This document shows positions 15,454-20,557 of a stretch of 34,734 nt of DNA, one piece after another. The position numbers and the translations under genes were made by a program. Location of the stretch: positions 1 through 34,734 of the forward strand of contig DASYZB010000093.1 in the NCBI GenBank assembly GCA_035946615.1. Direction: 5' to 3'. The notes beneath the pieces were generated by a model. The model ran no database searches, was not told the origin of the DNA, and saw only the letters and a list, made by a program, of their open reading frames with translations. Positions within the stretch are counted from its first letter, which is position 1; every line of letters begins with the position of its first letter. The stretch comes from Verrucomicrobiia bacterium (GTDB lineage Bacteria; Verrucomicrobiota; Verrucomicrobiia; Limisphaerales; UBA8199).

Positions 15454-17187
15454 TCAGAGACTTCGCGGCTGGGTCACCGTCCCCTTCACGAGTTCCAACG
15501 TCTTGTCCACAGCCAATCCGCTCTCCACGGCCATCAGGCTGCCGGCTCGCGGCTTTAACTCGATTTGCCCCTTGGCCAGCGACTTCTCACCTATCCCAAT
15601 GCGGATTGGAAAGCCGATCAACTCTGAATCCTTGAACTTGACCCCGGGCCTGTCATTCCGGTCATCGAGAATGACATCAACGCCGCGCGCCAGGAGTTCT
15701 GAGTAAATGGTTTCCGCGCAGCGCATCACAGCACTTTCTGCTGCGACACTGAGCGGAGTGATGCAAACCGTGTAAGGGGCTACGCTGAGCGGCCAGACAA
15801 TCCCGTTCGGGTCATGGCTTTGTTCAATGATTGCCTGCAGCGTGCGCGTGACGCCAATCCCGTAACAGCCCATAATTGCCGGTTGTTGTTTGCCCGCTTC
15901 ATCCAAAAACAACGCGTGGAGCGCCAGGCTGTACTTCGTGCCCAGTTTGAACACGTGGCCGACCTCGATTGCCCTCTGGACACGCAGCGGTTTGCCGCAA
16001 ACGTGGCAGGGCTCGCCGGGTTGAACCAGGCGCAAATCGGCCCAGCCGCTGACCTGGATATCCCGGCTTATGGACACGTTGCGCAGGTGGAAGCCGTCTT
16101 CATTAGCGCCGGTGGTCATGTCCAAAACCCCTCTCAAGCGCTCATCCGCATAAACAGGGTAGCGCGCCATGCCCACTGCCCCCAGGCTGCCCGGATGCGC
16201 CCCCAACGCGGTAAAGATTTCCTCGGTCTCAGCGGACCGGAACGTCGTGGTGCCAAGCATCCCCGCCAGCTTGGCTTCGTTCAATTGGTCGTCACCGCGC
16301 AACAGAACCAGCACCGGTTTGTTCTCGGCAATATAAACCAGAGTTTTAATCTGGCGCTCCGCTGGCACATTGAAAGGCTGTTTTGTGAGCGCTTCGATTG
16401 TCACCACGCCGGGCGTGGGGAATTTCTCGGTCGGCCCGCTGGGATTACCCGCCAGAGCTGTCTGCGGCGAACGGCTGGTGGCCTTCTCGACATTGGCGGC
16501 GTAACGGCAGCCTTCGCAAATGACCACTTCGTTCTCGCCGGTCTCGGCCGGGACCATGAATTCGTGCGAAAACTTCCCGCCCATCACCCCGGTATCGGCC
16601 TCGACCGCAATGGTCTTGAGGCCGCAGCGCTCAAAGATGCGGGCATAAGCGTCGTACATTTTGCGGTAGCTCTGCTGCGCCCCCTCATCGCTTGCATCGA
16701 AACTGTAGGCATCTTTCATGACGAATTCTTTGGCCCGCATCAGGCCGAACCGAGGGCGTATTTCGTCACGAAATTTGGTTTGGATTTGGTAAAAATTCTT
16801 AGGCAATTGCCGGTAGGAGTTTATCTCGCCGGCAACAAGCGTGGTGATGACCTCCTCGTGCGTCGGACCCAGGACCCATTCCTTCTTCGCCCGGTCCCGC
16901 ACCTTGAACAAGACGTCGCGAGCCGTCTCATAGCGGCCACTCTGCCGCCAAATGTCCGGCGGCTGGAGGGCCGGCATCAGCACCTCCAGGGCGCCCGCCC
17001 GGTTCATTTCTTCACGAACGATTTGTTCGATCTTGCGCAACGCGCGCAGGCCCAGGGGTAGAAAGGTGTAAAGACCGCCCGTGAGCTTGCGAATGAGGCC
17101 GGCGCGCAACAAGAGTTGGTGCGAGATGATCTCCGCTTCCGCTGGAGTCTCTTTCAAAGTCGGAATCAAGGTCTGTGACCAACGCAT
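15454..17187 (-). CDS. proS: Proline--tRNA ligase
   Basis: A 577-residue bacterial-type prolyl-tRNA synthetase, which charges tRNA-Pro. Translation is placed at the ATG at 17187 (MRWSQTLIPT). The open frame extends upstream, but that stretch runs into repeat DNA and has no homology to the family. Class II motifs are visible: motif 1 in PLGLRALRKIEQIVREEM, motif 2 in FRDEIRPRFGLMRAKEF with MKDAYSF after it, and motif 3 in GCYGIGVTRTL. Between motifs 2 and 3 lies the INS editing insertion (roughly residues 220-390, including LVLLRGDDQLNEAKL), which clears Ala-tRNA-Pro. The anticodon-binding domain follows at the C-terminus. A pair of 180-bp repeats precedes the gene. Confidence 0.95.
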   Translation of the reverse strand: MRWSQTLIPTLKETPAEAEIISHQLLLRAGLIRKLTGGLYTFLPLGLRALRKIEQIVREEMNRAGALEVLMPALQPPDIWRQSGRYETARDVLFKVRDRAKKEWVLGPTHEEVITTLVAGEINSYRQLPKNFYQIQTKFRDEIRPRFGLMRAKEFVMKDAYSFDASDEGAQQSYRKMYDAYARIFERCGLKTIAVEADTGVMGGKFSHEFMVPAETGENEVVICEGCRYAANVEKATSRSPQTALAGNPSGPTEKFPTPGVVTIEALTKQPFNVPAERQIKTLVYIAENKPVLVLLRGDDQLNEAKLAGMLGTTTFRSAETEEIFTALGAHPGSLGAVGMARYPVYADERLRGVLDMTTGANEDGFHLRNVSISRDIQVSGWADLRLVQPGEPCHVCGKPLRVQRAIEVGHVFKLGTKYSLALHALFLDEAGKQQPAIMGCYGIGVTRTLQAIIEQSHDPNGIVWPLSVAPYTVCITPLSVAAESAVMRCAETIYSELLARGVDVILDDRNDRPGVKFKDSELIGFPIRIGIGEKSLAKGQIELKPRAGSLMAVESGLAVDKTLELVKGTVTQPRSL

Positions 17188-17264
17188 ACGAGCCGCGCAG
17201 TGTGGAGAGCCAATAGCAAGATGGAAAGCGCGAAGTGCATGTTGGGTTAATTCCGGGTCCCGCG

Positions 17265-17623
17265 TCCAGCGGCATTGAATTGGACGGACATAGCGAGAAC
17301 TGAAGAACATCCAAAAGCGGTAGAGGACTACCGCAGTCCAAGACGCTAGCGCGCCGTCTGGCGCACGTTCGCGCAAAGCGTTTTGGACTGCGCCAGCCCT
17401 CTGGCGCTTTTGGGCCGCGCCTTGCGTAAAGTTCCACTCTCACGCCCAGTGGCATTGAATTGGGCGGGCGGGGTGAGAACTGAAGGACACCCAAAAGCGG
17501 TAGAGGACTACCGCAGTCCAAGACGCTAGCGCGCCGTCTGGCGCACGTCCGCGCGAAGCGTTTTGGACTGTGCCAGTCCTCTGCGCTTTTGGGCCGCGCC
17601 TCGCGTAAAGTTCCACTCTCACG
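17265..17623. repeat. Two tandem 180-bp repeats with nested cloverleaf-like palindromes
   Basis: Copy 1 is 17265-17444 and copy 2 is 17445-17623, with a period of 180 bases, a few substitutions and a single-base deletion in copy 2. Each has a roughly 103-bp palindrome (17311-17413 and 17491-17592). In copy 1 the outer stem CCAAAA/TTTTGG encloses three parts. These are a hairpin GCGGTAG-AGGA-CTACCGC (17317-17334), a long stem AGTCCAAGACGC (17335-17346) with GCGTTTTGGACT (17378-17389), and a hairpin GCGCCAG-CCCT-CTGGCGC (17390-17407). The inner loop contains GCGCC-GTCT-GGCGC. A partial third copy of the core is at 17623-17646. Reading frames here are artefacts of the repeat. Confidence 0.9.
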
Positions 17624-17646
17624 ACGCTAGCGCGCCGTTCTGGCGC
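17623..17646. repeat. Partial third copy of the repeat core
   Basis: GACGCTAGCGCGCCGTTCTGGCGC matches positions 17522-17545 of copy 2 except for one inserted T. It directly abuts copy 2 and ends shortly before the stop codon of the lipoprotein gene, suggesting internal deletion or recombination between copies. Confidence 0.7.
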
Positions 17647-17659
17647 GGTGGGCAGACTT

Positions 17660-18010
17660 TTACTTCGGCTGCTGTTGCTGTTGGGCGAGGTAGTTTTTGA
17701 CCTGTTCCAGCGTGTCAGAGACGACTTTCTTTTCCGGAGCGGTCAAAGCGGGATTCTGGTTGAGTGTATCCAACTCAACCAGGACCTGATCGTAATTAAT
17801 GCCGTAACGAAGGTCGGCGGAGATCTTACCAACCGCTCCCTGAATGTCCGCGTTAGTATTGCCAGCCAGCGCTTGCTTGAGTTTGCTCAGCGCTATCGGC
17901 GCATTATTCGCTACGGGCGCAGCCTCAACGGTATCCTTCTTTTTGCCGCAACCAGCAAAGGCGACCAGACAGGCCATCACAAGCGCCGCAAGCCAGTTAG
18001 CTTTTTTCAT
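17660..18010 (-). CDS. Small predicted lipoprotein of unknown function
   Basis: A 116-residue protein with a lipoprotein signal: MKKANWLAALVMACLVAFAGC, where FAGC is the lipobox and Cys21 the lipidation site, followed by a GKKKD linker. The mature part is short and mostly helical (LSKLKQALAGN, LEQVKNYLAQ) and ends in a poly-Gln run, QQQQQ. No family is recognised. It follows the prepilin-like gene by 38 bases on the same strand, so the two may share a transcript. The repeat cluster lies directly downstream. Confidence 0.8.
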   Translation of the reverse strand: MKKANWLAALVMACLVAFAGCGKKKDTVEAAPVANNAPIALSKLKQALAGNTNADIQGAVGKISADLRYGINYDQVLVELDTLNQNPALTAPEKKVVSDTLEQVKNYLAQQQQQPK

Positions 18011-18048: not shown

Positions 18049-18990
18049 TCATTGCAAGGCAGAAGAATGCTCGGCGAGCCAAACAAAGTCCGAGATGTCG
18101 CCAAGCTGGCTAACCGTGACCGTAGCGACGTTCCCACCCTGAAGTGTGGGGCCAACCCATTTGTGGATTTCAGCATGGCCGTCACAGAAGGAGAACCCGC
18201 AGCCACCCGCGTGCAGTGCAGCAGGCCAATCAACAAATTTCCGCTGGGTCAGGTCAGCAACCGTGCCCAGCGCGCCGTCATTGATACTCTTGGGATTCTC
18301 ATCCACAGTCATAAACACCATCGACGGGCCAATGACCGTGAAAGTGTCATTTTTGCCAAATGTGGCAAACTTGCCATTGTTGCTGTGGTTGCCGTCCAGC
18401 CAAGGACCTTTGGTCGGATGGCGGATGAGGCCGCCGTGACCAGTGCCGCTGGTCCAGAAGGTATCGTCAACGCTGCCGACAGCGCCGCTTGCGGAGATGG
18501 TCCGCACAGCCGAGATGGTTTGCCCAATAAGACTCGGTTGCTGATTGCCGCTGTACTTGCCGGTCCGCACGTCGGCTGGACAATGAAATATTTTGATGTT
18601 GTTGGCGATGTATGGATCGACCAGGCAATAGCTTGGATCGTAATAGGGGTCGGGATTGAAAACGTCGGGGGTATTGTCTCCTAGGGCATTGGGACACCAA
18701 TGAAAGTACTTGATCGAACTGCCCGGGTCATCCGGGTTGGGCGGGTACCATTGGTAATCCATCGAGTACTGATGCCATGCCAACGCCATCTGCTTGGAAT
18801 TGTTCATGCATTGAATCTGCTGCGCCTTGGACTTGGCGCGCGACAGTGCCGGCAGCAGCATGGCTGCCAGAATCGCGATGATGGCTATCACCACCAGCAA
18901 TTCGATTAGCGTAAAACCCCTGGTCATCGAGGGATTGGCCTGCAAACTGGAAGGTCTCCTTCCGCATCGGGATTGATAATTCATATTCAT
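18049..18990 (-). CDS. Prepilin-like protein with N-terminal methylation motif and H-X9-DG C-terminus
   Basis: A type II secretion pseudopilin-like protein, about 313 residues from the ATG at 18990; other possible starts are 18984 and the ATG of MTRGFTLIE. The leader [28 protein letters not shown] has the prepilin peptidase site G|FTLIE with Glu+5 and one hydrophobic helix. The remainder is a soluble domain ending in [16 protein letters not shown], which fits the H-X9-DG motif of the large family expanded in Planctomycetes and Verrucomicrobia. The open frame reaches into the purF coding region, but that part has no pilin character. These proteins occur in many copies per genome and most have no known role. 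No other pilus gene is adjacent. Confidence 0.85.
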
Positions 18991-19096
18991 AAGCGAGCGC
19001 TGGAATTCAAATCGACGTGAGTCAAAATAGGCCCCTTGGCAAAGGCGGTCAAGAACCAAATCTCGATGACGATATTGGCTAATTTGGGCCGCCTGA

Positions 19097-20557
19097 CTAC
19101 AGCAGCCGAATCTGCGCCTGTTCTTTGGCGATGGATTCGGCCAGGCTGGGCAAGCGCCCATTGCGCCGCTCGATAATATGCTTGTCGGTTCCAGGGTCAT
19201 AGGCAACGGGATAATTGCCGTCGTAACAGGCCATGCAGAATGAGTCGGCGGGCAGGCCGGTGGCCTTGACCATGCCCTCTTGCGAGAGGTAATGCAGTGA
19301 ATCGGTATTGAGATACTTGCGAATTTCTTCCACGGAATGATTCGCCGCCATCAGTTTGGTGCGGTCTGGAAAATCGATTCCATAAACGCACGGGTTCATG
19401 TGCGGCGGGCAACTGACCAGCACATGGACCTCCTTCGCCCCGGCTTCTTTCAGATTGTTCACGCGCGCCTTGCAGGTGGTGCCTCGCACAATCGAGTCGT
19501 CCACCACGATGACCCGCTTGTCCTTCACCAATTCCTCGATCAGGTTGAGTTTCACGCGCACATCGAAATCGCGAATCAATTGCGAGGGTTGGAGGAAGCT
19601 GCGGCCAACATAGTGGTTGCGCACAAACGCCATCTCGAAGGGCACCCCCGATTCCAGCGAATAGCCCAGCGCCGCGCAATTGCCGCTGTCGGGCACCGGC
19701 ACCACCACATCGGCTGCTATCGGGAACTCGCGCGCCAGTTGCCGGCCCATTTCCACTCGCACTTTATACACATTGCGGTTGGCAATGGCGCTGTCGGGAC
19801 GCGCGAAATAAACATACTCAAAAATGCAGAAAGCGCGGCGTTGCTGGTCTGGAAAGGCCTGCGTGCTGGTCACCCCCTTTTCATTAATCACCACCACCTC
19901 GCCGGGCTCGACGTCGCGCACGAACTTTGCGTGAATCAAATCCAGGGCGCAGGTCTCGCTGGCCAGCACCCAGCCATCCTCGATGCGACCCAGGCACAGC
20001 GGTCGGAACCCATGCGGGTCCCGCACCCCGATTAGCTCTTTTTCGGTCAGAATGACCAGTGAATAGGCCCCTTCGATGCGGCGGATGGCCTGCAGCAGGC
20101 TGCTGCCCTGGCCATTCGTCGAGGGTTGGGCCATCAGGTGCAGAACGATCTCGCTATCTACCGTGGTTTGGAAAATCGAGCCTTTGGCCTCAAGTTCATC
20201 GCGCAACCGCGCGGCGTTGGTCAAGTTCCCGTTGTGGGCAATCGCGATTTGGCCGCGGACGCAATCGACCGTCAATGGCTGGGCATTGAGCAGGTGAGAA
20301 GAGCCGGTCGTCGAGTAGCGGGTATGCCCGATGGCGCTCTGGCCGACCAAGCCGTGGAGCACATCGCCATTGAAGACTTGGGAAACCAAGCCCATGCCTT
20401 TATGGCGGTAGAAGCGGCGGCCATCTGAGGTGACGATGCCGGCGCTCTCCTGCCCGCGATGCTGCAACGCGTACAGGCCGTAATACGTCAACTCGGCCGC
20501 GTTCGGGTGGCCAAACACGCCGAACACGCCGCAATAATGTTTTGGGTAATCCTGCAT
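19097..20557 (-). CDS. purF: Amidophosphoribosyltransferase (glutamine PRPP amidotransferase)
   Basis: PurF catalyses the first step of purine synthesis, PRPP plus glutamine to 5-phosphoribosylamine. From the ATG at 20557 the protein has 486 residues. A GTG at 20581 would add eight residues. Processing before the Cys in [11 protein letters not shown] exposes the N-terminal nucleophile of the glutaminase domain, so the chosen start leaves an eight-residue propeptide, typical of the Fe-S type. Other marks are [20 protein letters not shown] and the PRPP loop [13 protein letters not shown]. Cysteines in CPPHMNPC and FCMACYDG fit [4Fe-4S] ligands of the Bacillus-type enzyme. Since the enzyme needs an Fe-S cluster, the divergent suf genes are a suggestive neighbour. 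Confidence 0.95.

Follow-up and report, generated by a model that had tools for sequence, protein, structure and literature searches.

RESULTS

A tandem repeat array between a lipoprotein gene and proS

The window, by which we mean the whole 34,734-nucleotide (nt) stretch of DNA that was analyzed, carries a block of repeats which, as the preliminary description of this DNA had placed it, lies between a lipoprotein gene and proS, both on the negative strand. The upstream gene (positions 17660 to 18010) encodes a 116-amino-acid (aa) predicted lipoprotein (MKKANWLAALVMACLVAFAGCGKKK...) that had no family match in protein-family profile searches; the distance between its stop codon and the array is 13 bp. 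On the downstream side, proS (15454 to 17187) encodes a 577-aa proline--tRNA ligase (NF006625, 752 bits), and 54 bp separate its start codon from the array. Positions 18049 to 19206 on the negative strand, upstream of the lipoprotein gene, encode a protein that resembles a pseudopilin and has N_methyl and DUF1559 (SBP_bac_10) domains.

Repeat comparison of the window resolved the block, which spans positions 17242 to 17646 and was assigned to neither strand, into two full copies of a 180-bp unit and a truncated third. A direct repeat of 162 nt with 86% identity joins positions 17242 to 17403 with 17422 to 17583 at a spacing of 180, and another of 41 nt with 98% identity joins positions 17404 to 17444 with 17583 to 17623 at a spacing of 179; the tandem 180-bp repeats that had been reported are thus real. 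The extent given before, 17265 to 17646, was right at its end, while its start moved to 17242 and the truncated third unit at 17620 to 17646 was added. Inverted repeats of 37 to 38 nt with 84% identity were also found within the window. Tandem Repeats Finder at a score of 60 listed nothing for the array, although the direct-repeat comparison shows it explicitly.

The 180-bp unit is built from two inverted 35-nt arms, L and R, with spacers of 29 nt between convergent and 81 nt between divergent arms. The array opens with a partial long spacer of 71 nt (17242 to 17312, positive strand), homologous to the end of the 81-nt spacer. It is followed by arm L1 (AAAAGCGGTAGAGGACTACCGCAGTCCAAGACGCT; 17313 to 17347, positive strand) with the local hairpin GCGGTAG-AGGA-CTACCGC, by the 29-nt short spacer between the convergent L1 and R1 (17348 to 17376, positive strand), and by arm R1 (17377 to 17411), which reads AAAAGCGCCAGAGGGCTGGCGCAGTCCAAAACGCT on the negative strand and has the stem GCGCCAG/CTGGCGC. 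The 81-nt long spacer between the divergent R1 and L2 (17412 to 17492, positive strand) leads to arm L2 (17493 to 17527, positive strand), which is identical to L1, the 29-nt short spacer of unit 2 (17528 to 17556, positive strand), and arm R2 (17557 to 17590, negative strand), in which one half-stem has a one-base deletion (GTGCCAGTCCTCTGCGC). Of the third long spacer only the truncated start is left (17591 to 17623, positive strand; direct-repeat family), and the third-unit remnant consists of the tail of an L arm with its short spacer (17620 to 17646, positive strand; direct-repeat family and blastn). As had been noticed from the letters alone, the two lateral arms of copy 1 differ in sequence and are both perfectly self-complementary, and the right arm of copy 2 has lost one base. 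The arm core pattern matched the window four times, against 0.00 matches expected from shuffles.

The arms are dispersed through the source genome and its order

A search of the host genome and its relatives for the palindrome, as had been proposed, returned many copies. In the source genome (5.6 Mb in 161 contigs), blastn gave 72 matches and an iterated profile found 90 arms at 60 places, 83 of the arms with an E value below 1e-3, while the 13-nt arm core had 47 exact matches against none for a reversed control. Most copies are degraded, and they are arranged as 35 single, 22 double, and 3 larger places; the length class of 80 to 85 nt for the long spacer recurs at about a dozen other loci of this genome. 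Confident arms occupy 58 loci. According to a simple home-made gene caller, 52 of the 54 assessable ones are intergenic, and the median distance is 44 bp to the 3′ end of a gene and 129 bp to a 5′ end.

Beyond the source genome, arms were present in 19 of 40 near relatives (the source genome counted in), in 106 of the 196 genomes of the order, and in 3 of 287 genomes sampled elsewhere in the phylum. An exact 29-nt pattern searched over 84,980 species recovered 16 stretches, all from Verrucomicrobiota metagenome-assembled genomes (MAGs). The usual unit of the relatives is a convergent dimer of approximately 100 bp bounded by AAAGCG and CGCTTT. The loci fetched from one relative, G472, were mostly doublets and included about 27 dispersed dimers, and because many of these dimers carry identical arms at unrelated places, the sequences suggest a fairly recent spread of dimers in this genome. 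Conserved sequence runs approximately 15 to 20 bp past both ends of its 102-bp dimer (TCCTGCATNCG before and ACGGAGCCNATGCCG after), so what is mobile or duplicated in G472 may be a unit longer than the dimer. In the distant relatives G268 and G277, AAAGCGGCAGAGGACTGCCGCACTCCAA is kept and the GACGCT tail is replaced by AGATTCGCTTCGCTCATC or similar. Neither an empty site nor a target duplication was seen among the nearest genomes, which belong to other genera or are approximately 75% alike in DNA; in genus g17, the flanks were approximately 75% alike and the intergenic parts unmatched.

A RAYT clade accompanies the arms

Judged by the Pfam profile Y1_Tnp (PF01797), the arms appeared to have no transposase: none of the 43 PF01797 loci fetched had arms nearby, including the seven matches in the source genome, which belong to other groups. 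This apparent absence was overturned by the complete genome G293 of the same class, where a 184-aa gene that bears a RAYT signature has divergent pairs of arms on either side; the Pfam Y1_Tnp search does not detect this gene. Against NF047646 (NCBIfam, REP-associated tyrosine transposase), the G293 protein scored 75.4 bits, under the cut-off of 80, a value that one library has set as its threshold and that is no property of the protein itself.

The source genome has a RAYT gene of its own among the arms, at positions 39027 to 39578 of contig C113. Three arms lie downstream of it, at distances of 37, 154, and 228 nt, and one lies 157 nt upstream. The flank of this gene has the same architecture as the window, namely, a short spacer, R, an 83-nt spacer, and L. 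A second RAYT gene of the same clade (C65:47037-47591) is flanked by a different REP family, AAAGCGGTGTCGCGCTTCGCTTGCCACCGCACTCCAA, which has 16 copies in the source genome when up to 3 mismatches are allowed; a copy of that family lies immediately next to one arm, at C65:44550. The source-genome RAYT matches the Escherichia coli TnpA_REP structure (PDB 4er8) with an E value of 1.5e-6, and the HUH motif (HYH) and the catalytic Y127, which stands in the Y...NP context, are invariant in 12 aligned RAYT proteins. Since the residues with which E. coli TnpA_REP contacts GTAG are only partly conserved in the alignment to 4er8, the mode of recognition must differ in detail from that of the E. coli enzyme.

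Arms were found within 500 bp of 19 of the 30 RAYT loci tested first, compared with 0 of 43 other Y1_Tnp loci (Fisher P = 3e-10), and on both sides of the gene at 15 of these 30 loci. Across the order, 56 of 196 genomes have a RAYT at E values up to 1e-15, and 48 of them were counted as having close members. Arms occur in 40 of the 48 genomes having the RAYT and in 66 of the 148 without it (P = 2e-6, kinship ignored); the latter are 66 of the 106 arm-bearing genomes, as scored in draft genomes with strict cut-offs. In a larger set of 49 RAYT loci, a REP of one scaffold, AAAGCG-hairpin-CGCASTCCA, was located within 500 bp of nearly all. The window-type arm accompanied 19 of the 26 RAYTs that are at least 66% identical to the G293 protein, versus 1 of the 23 below that value. 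When the AGAGGACT apex, which marks the window type, was mapped as a label on the RAYT tree, it required 3 changes versus 15 in shuffled labels (0 of 500 shuffles). The hairpin apex of the scaffold REPs follows the RAYT tree. Two RAYT genes, in G353 and G382, have an in-frame stop (aligned positions 16 and 52) between intact arms, so the transposase there seems to be decaying while the repeats persist.

Its inverted repeats and tandem arrangement would also fit the array being a DDE-type miniature inverted-repeat transposable element (MITE), an integron attC site, or a CRISPR-like array. The arms are commonly single, though, the units are separated by neither gene cassettes nor unique spacers but by spacers that are themselves repeats, and the sole associated transposase found, in searches covering Y1_Tnp and RAYT, was the RAYT; we consider that explanation very improbable.

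Comparison of copies points to the single-arm hairpin as the maintained unit

The 103-nt palindromes fold far better than shuffled sequences, with z scores of −8.0 to −9.1 as DNA and −8.3 to −8.7 as RNA, that is, about −8 to −9 in both of the molecules in which folding had been suggested as a check. The nested cloverleaf that had been described did not hold as the lowest-energy fold, which is one long hairpin. Imposing the lateral hairpins on copy 1 costs 2.4 to 4.2 kcal/mol as DNA and 8 to 11 kcal/mol as RNA, and energy alone therefore gives the cloverleaf no preference. Its lateral hairpins are nevertheless what the comparison of copies shows to be kept.

Among 136 distinct arms, the local stem GCGNNAG/CTNNCGC is 94.9% paired, and its covariation score was 0.265 versus 0.118 in shuffled alignments, with 0 of 500 shuffles reaching it; the signal collapsed when the stem was shifted by one column. 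In place of the single copy without covariation that the preliminary description had named as evidence against itself, there are many copies with clear covariation. The distinct dimers comprise 73 convergent and 36 divergent ones. Within the 73 convergent dimers, the local hairpins are 97.6% paired, compared with 81.5% in the same columns for the long hairpin between L and R, and at positions 8 and 19, which are the positions that distinguish L from R, pairing between the two arms drops to 15% and 19%, respectively. Heterodimers of L and R account for 50 of these 73 dimers, and the two arms are identical in only 1. Because local pairing is high and L-to-R pairing fails at the very positions distinguishing the arms, we take the single-arm hairpin to be the maintained unit. 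Many of the paired changes represent the old L/R dimorphism, and the sequence counts are not counts of independent events. The REPs with other apices, 69 in number, form their fourth to sixth stem pairs in 93 to 94% of cases versus approximately 37.5% by chance, in many sequence versions, and these REPs of other RAYT subclades give partly independent support for a maintained hairpin.

Template-switch correction perfects palindromes without selection. It is conceivable, though on balance rather unlikely, that the paired substitutions in the arms arose by such quasipalindrome correction during replication and not by selection on the fold, the more so as the L/R difference could be one old event copied many times. 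Correction of this kind should, however, homogenize L and R across the dimer, yet they are identical in that single dimer only, and the apices differ between RAYT subclades yet still pair. The earlier proposal that the folded shape and not the sequence is maintained is supported by covariation for the lateral hairpins, and template-switch correction could add to the pattern.

The array is absent beside proS in relatives

In all 12 family relatives compared, no arm was located within 1.5 kb of proS, although most of them carry the arm family elsewhere. The lipoprotein gene was not found beside proS in the relatives, where the comparison was limited to presence or absence. Within this sample, the array beside proS is specific to the source lineage, and it is therefore no conserved control element or leader of proS. 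A search of positions 16900 to 18000 against Rfam gave chance matches only, none near a curated threshold.

These data bear on the possibility that selection maintains the array as a regulatory element of the lipoprotein-proS region, be it a transcription barrier, a 3′ stabilizer, an attenuator, or a processed RNA. Very stable RNA hairpins would indeed form on the transcribed strand 13 nt past the stop codon of the lipoprotein gene, arm copies lie nearer to gene 3′ ends than to 5′ ends, and REPs elsewhere are known to stabilize mRNA (PMC3733652, PMC6006769). Nevertheless, the unit of the 180-bp array also adjoins dozens of unrelated genes, none of the 12 relatives has it at proS, and the threshold of no Rfam family was reached, and we judge such a role improbable. 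The array is most likely no special device of a neighboring gene, and any effect on expression of the lipoprotein gene or proS would be a by-product.

DISCUSSION

The block between the lipoprotein gene and proS is very probably a tandem, BIME-like REPIN array of a Verrucomicrobiota REP family that is paired with its own RAYT clade. Among the three options raised at the outset (a transcription barrier, a processed RNA, or a non-autonomous mobile element), the last is most likely the right one, in view of the dispersed copies, the covariation, and the cognate RAYT in the same genome. The observations that carry this reading are the dispersed and mostly intergenic copies, the L/R heterodimers, the covariation of the hairpin, the flanking of RAYT genes in many genomes, and a RAYT clade that tracks the REP type.

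By analogy with work on TnpA_REP (PMC8266576), and given the association between RAYT and arms, the arms would be mobilized by the RAYT. In the model drawn from that work for folding, foot binding, cutting, and transfer, each arm would fold into its own 7-bp hairpin in single-stranded DNA of the lagging strand. The RAYT, as an HUH Y1 nuclease, would bind the hairpin together with the conserved unpaired foot TTGGASTG, which lies on the 5′ side of the hairpin when read on the strand where the foot precedes it. The enzyme would then cut near the foot and move or copy the REPIN into a different intergenic region, in many cases immediately past a stop codon. The tandem 180-bp array may have arisen when the unit was duplicated locally, and it would now be decaying, as the one-base deletion in R2 and the truncated third unit suggest.

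The inverted pair of REPs with a short spacer, the many mostly intergenic copies, and a cognate RAYT nearby are features of REPINs (Bertels and Rainey 2011, PMC3116915). The likeness extends to a spacer between two inverted REPs that could form a long hairpin, to dispersal between genes, and to tandem clusters that include the flanks, one cluster lying beside the cognate RAYT. The Verrucomicrobiota elements, which are known from sequence, differ in their host, in the foot and hairpin (AAAGCG-hairpin-CGCASTCCA), in the dimorphic arms of the L/R heterodimer, and in that singlets outnumber doublets in the source genome (35 versus 22, the copies being degraded). With the BIMEs of E. coli (PMC2817692, PMC6006769) they share alternating inverted REPs of two types, two alternating spacer classes (here 29 and 81 nt), tandem units, and a RAYT beside such an array (C113), whereas no sequence relation to the alternating Y and Z REPs and their different spacers was seen. 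As in the REPtrons of RAYT TnpA_REP (Nunvar 2010, PMC2817692; PDB 4ER8), a gene for an HUH Y1 nuclease with the catalytic HUH motif and tyrosine is flanked by inverted REPs, with one REP type per RAYT and the two changing together. In contrast to these REPtrons, the RAYT described here is unseen by Pfam Y1_Tnp, the foot is not GT[AG]G, and the GTAG-contacting residues of the E. coli protein are only partly kept.

Judging by the arms compared, the family lacks both published REP tags, GTAG and CGTC, in the defining position. A canonical GTAG-tagged REP (for the tag, see PMC3733652 and PMC6006769) would have the foot GTAG followed by the hairpin GGACT-ACCGC-AGTCC, and in L arms of the GCGGTAG type, a GTAG does stand ahead of a potential 5-bp stem. 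This GGACT/AGTCC stem lacks covariation, and 56 of the 136 arms have one of its pairs broken, while GCAG or CCAG replaces GTAG in most arms. We rejected this assignment as very improbable, GTAG being a variable part of the supported stem. The CGTC-tagged REPs (Di Nocera 2013, PMC3733652) are alike in that the arms end in CGTC or CGTT on one strand, form inverted heterodimers, and lie in intergenic regions near 3′ ends. In the CGTC-tagged REPs, the foot directly adjoins a stem of 8 to 9 bp that begins with AT pairs, the tail is CCA, and a transposase partner is lacking (PMC3733652), whereas here the stem is a different one, a RAYT is associated, and the CGTC end varies, some relatives having lost it. 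This assignment was likewise rejected: TTGGASTG separates the CGTC/CGTT ends from the 7-bp stem, and the tail is lost in G268 and G277. Atypical structures other than GT[AG]G have been reported for class 2.6 and class 3 TnpA_Y1 (PMC6006769), which resemble our family in having REPs without GT[AG]G beside TnpA_REP-like genes. Class 2.6 has been described chiefly from Bacteroidetes, with weaker structures (PMC6006769), and it is set apart here by its description and not by sequence. A search of open-licence papers for the arm core sequence found no paper on the repeat, an earlier description elsewhere being possible, and of papers on REPs, the only one found to deal with Verrucomicrobia describes GTAG repeats from a single species, O. 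terrae. Within a known kind of bacterial mobile DNA, the family forms a little-known branch.

Going a step further, we find it somewhat more likely than not that the scaffold AAAGCG-hairpin-CGCASTCCA with the foot TGGASTG defines a third REP super-family, which would have diversified together with a Verrucomicrobiota RAYT clade. That clade may read a code of structure plus foot unlike that of E. coli TnpA_REP, each subclade having its own apex, and the L/R dimorphism may serve to avoid a perfect long palindrome.

RAYTs and REPINs are the best-known example of bacteria keeping a transposase alongside a population of tiny repeats. Studies of them have centered on Proteobacteria and on repeats with GTAG feet. 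The Verrucomicrobiota family is order-wide, differs in its foot, and comes with a defined RAYT clade and numerous natural pairs of RAYT and REP, which makes it a ready comparative set for questions such as how a hairpin is read by RAYTs and what lies behind the preference for heterodimers. The REPIN family also accounts for a repeat seen again and again across many draft genomes of Verrucomicrobiota, and its arms may be among the sequences at which such draft assemblies are fragmented.
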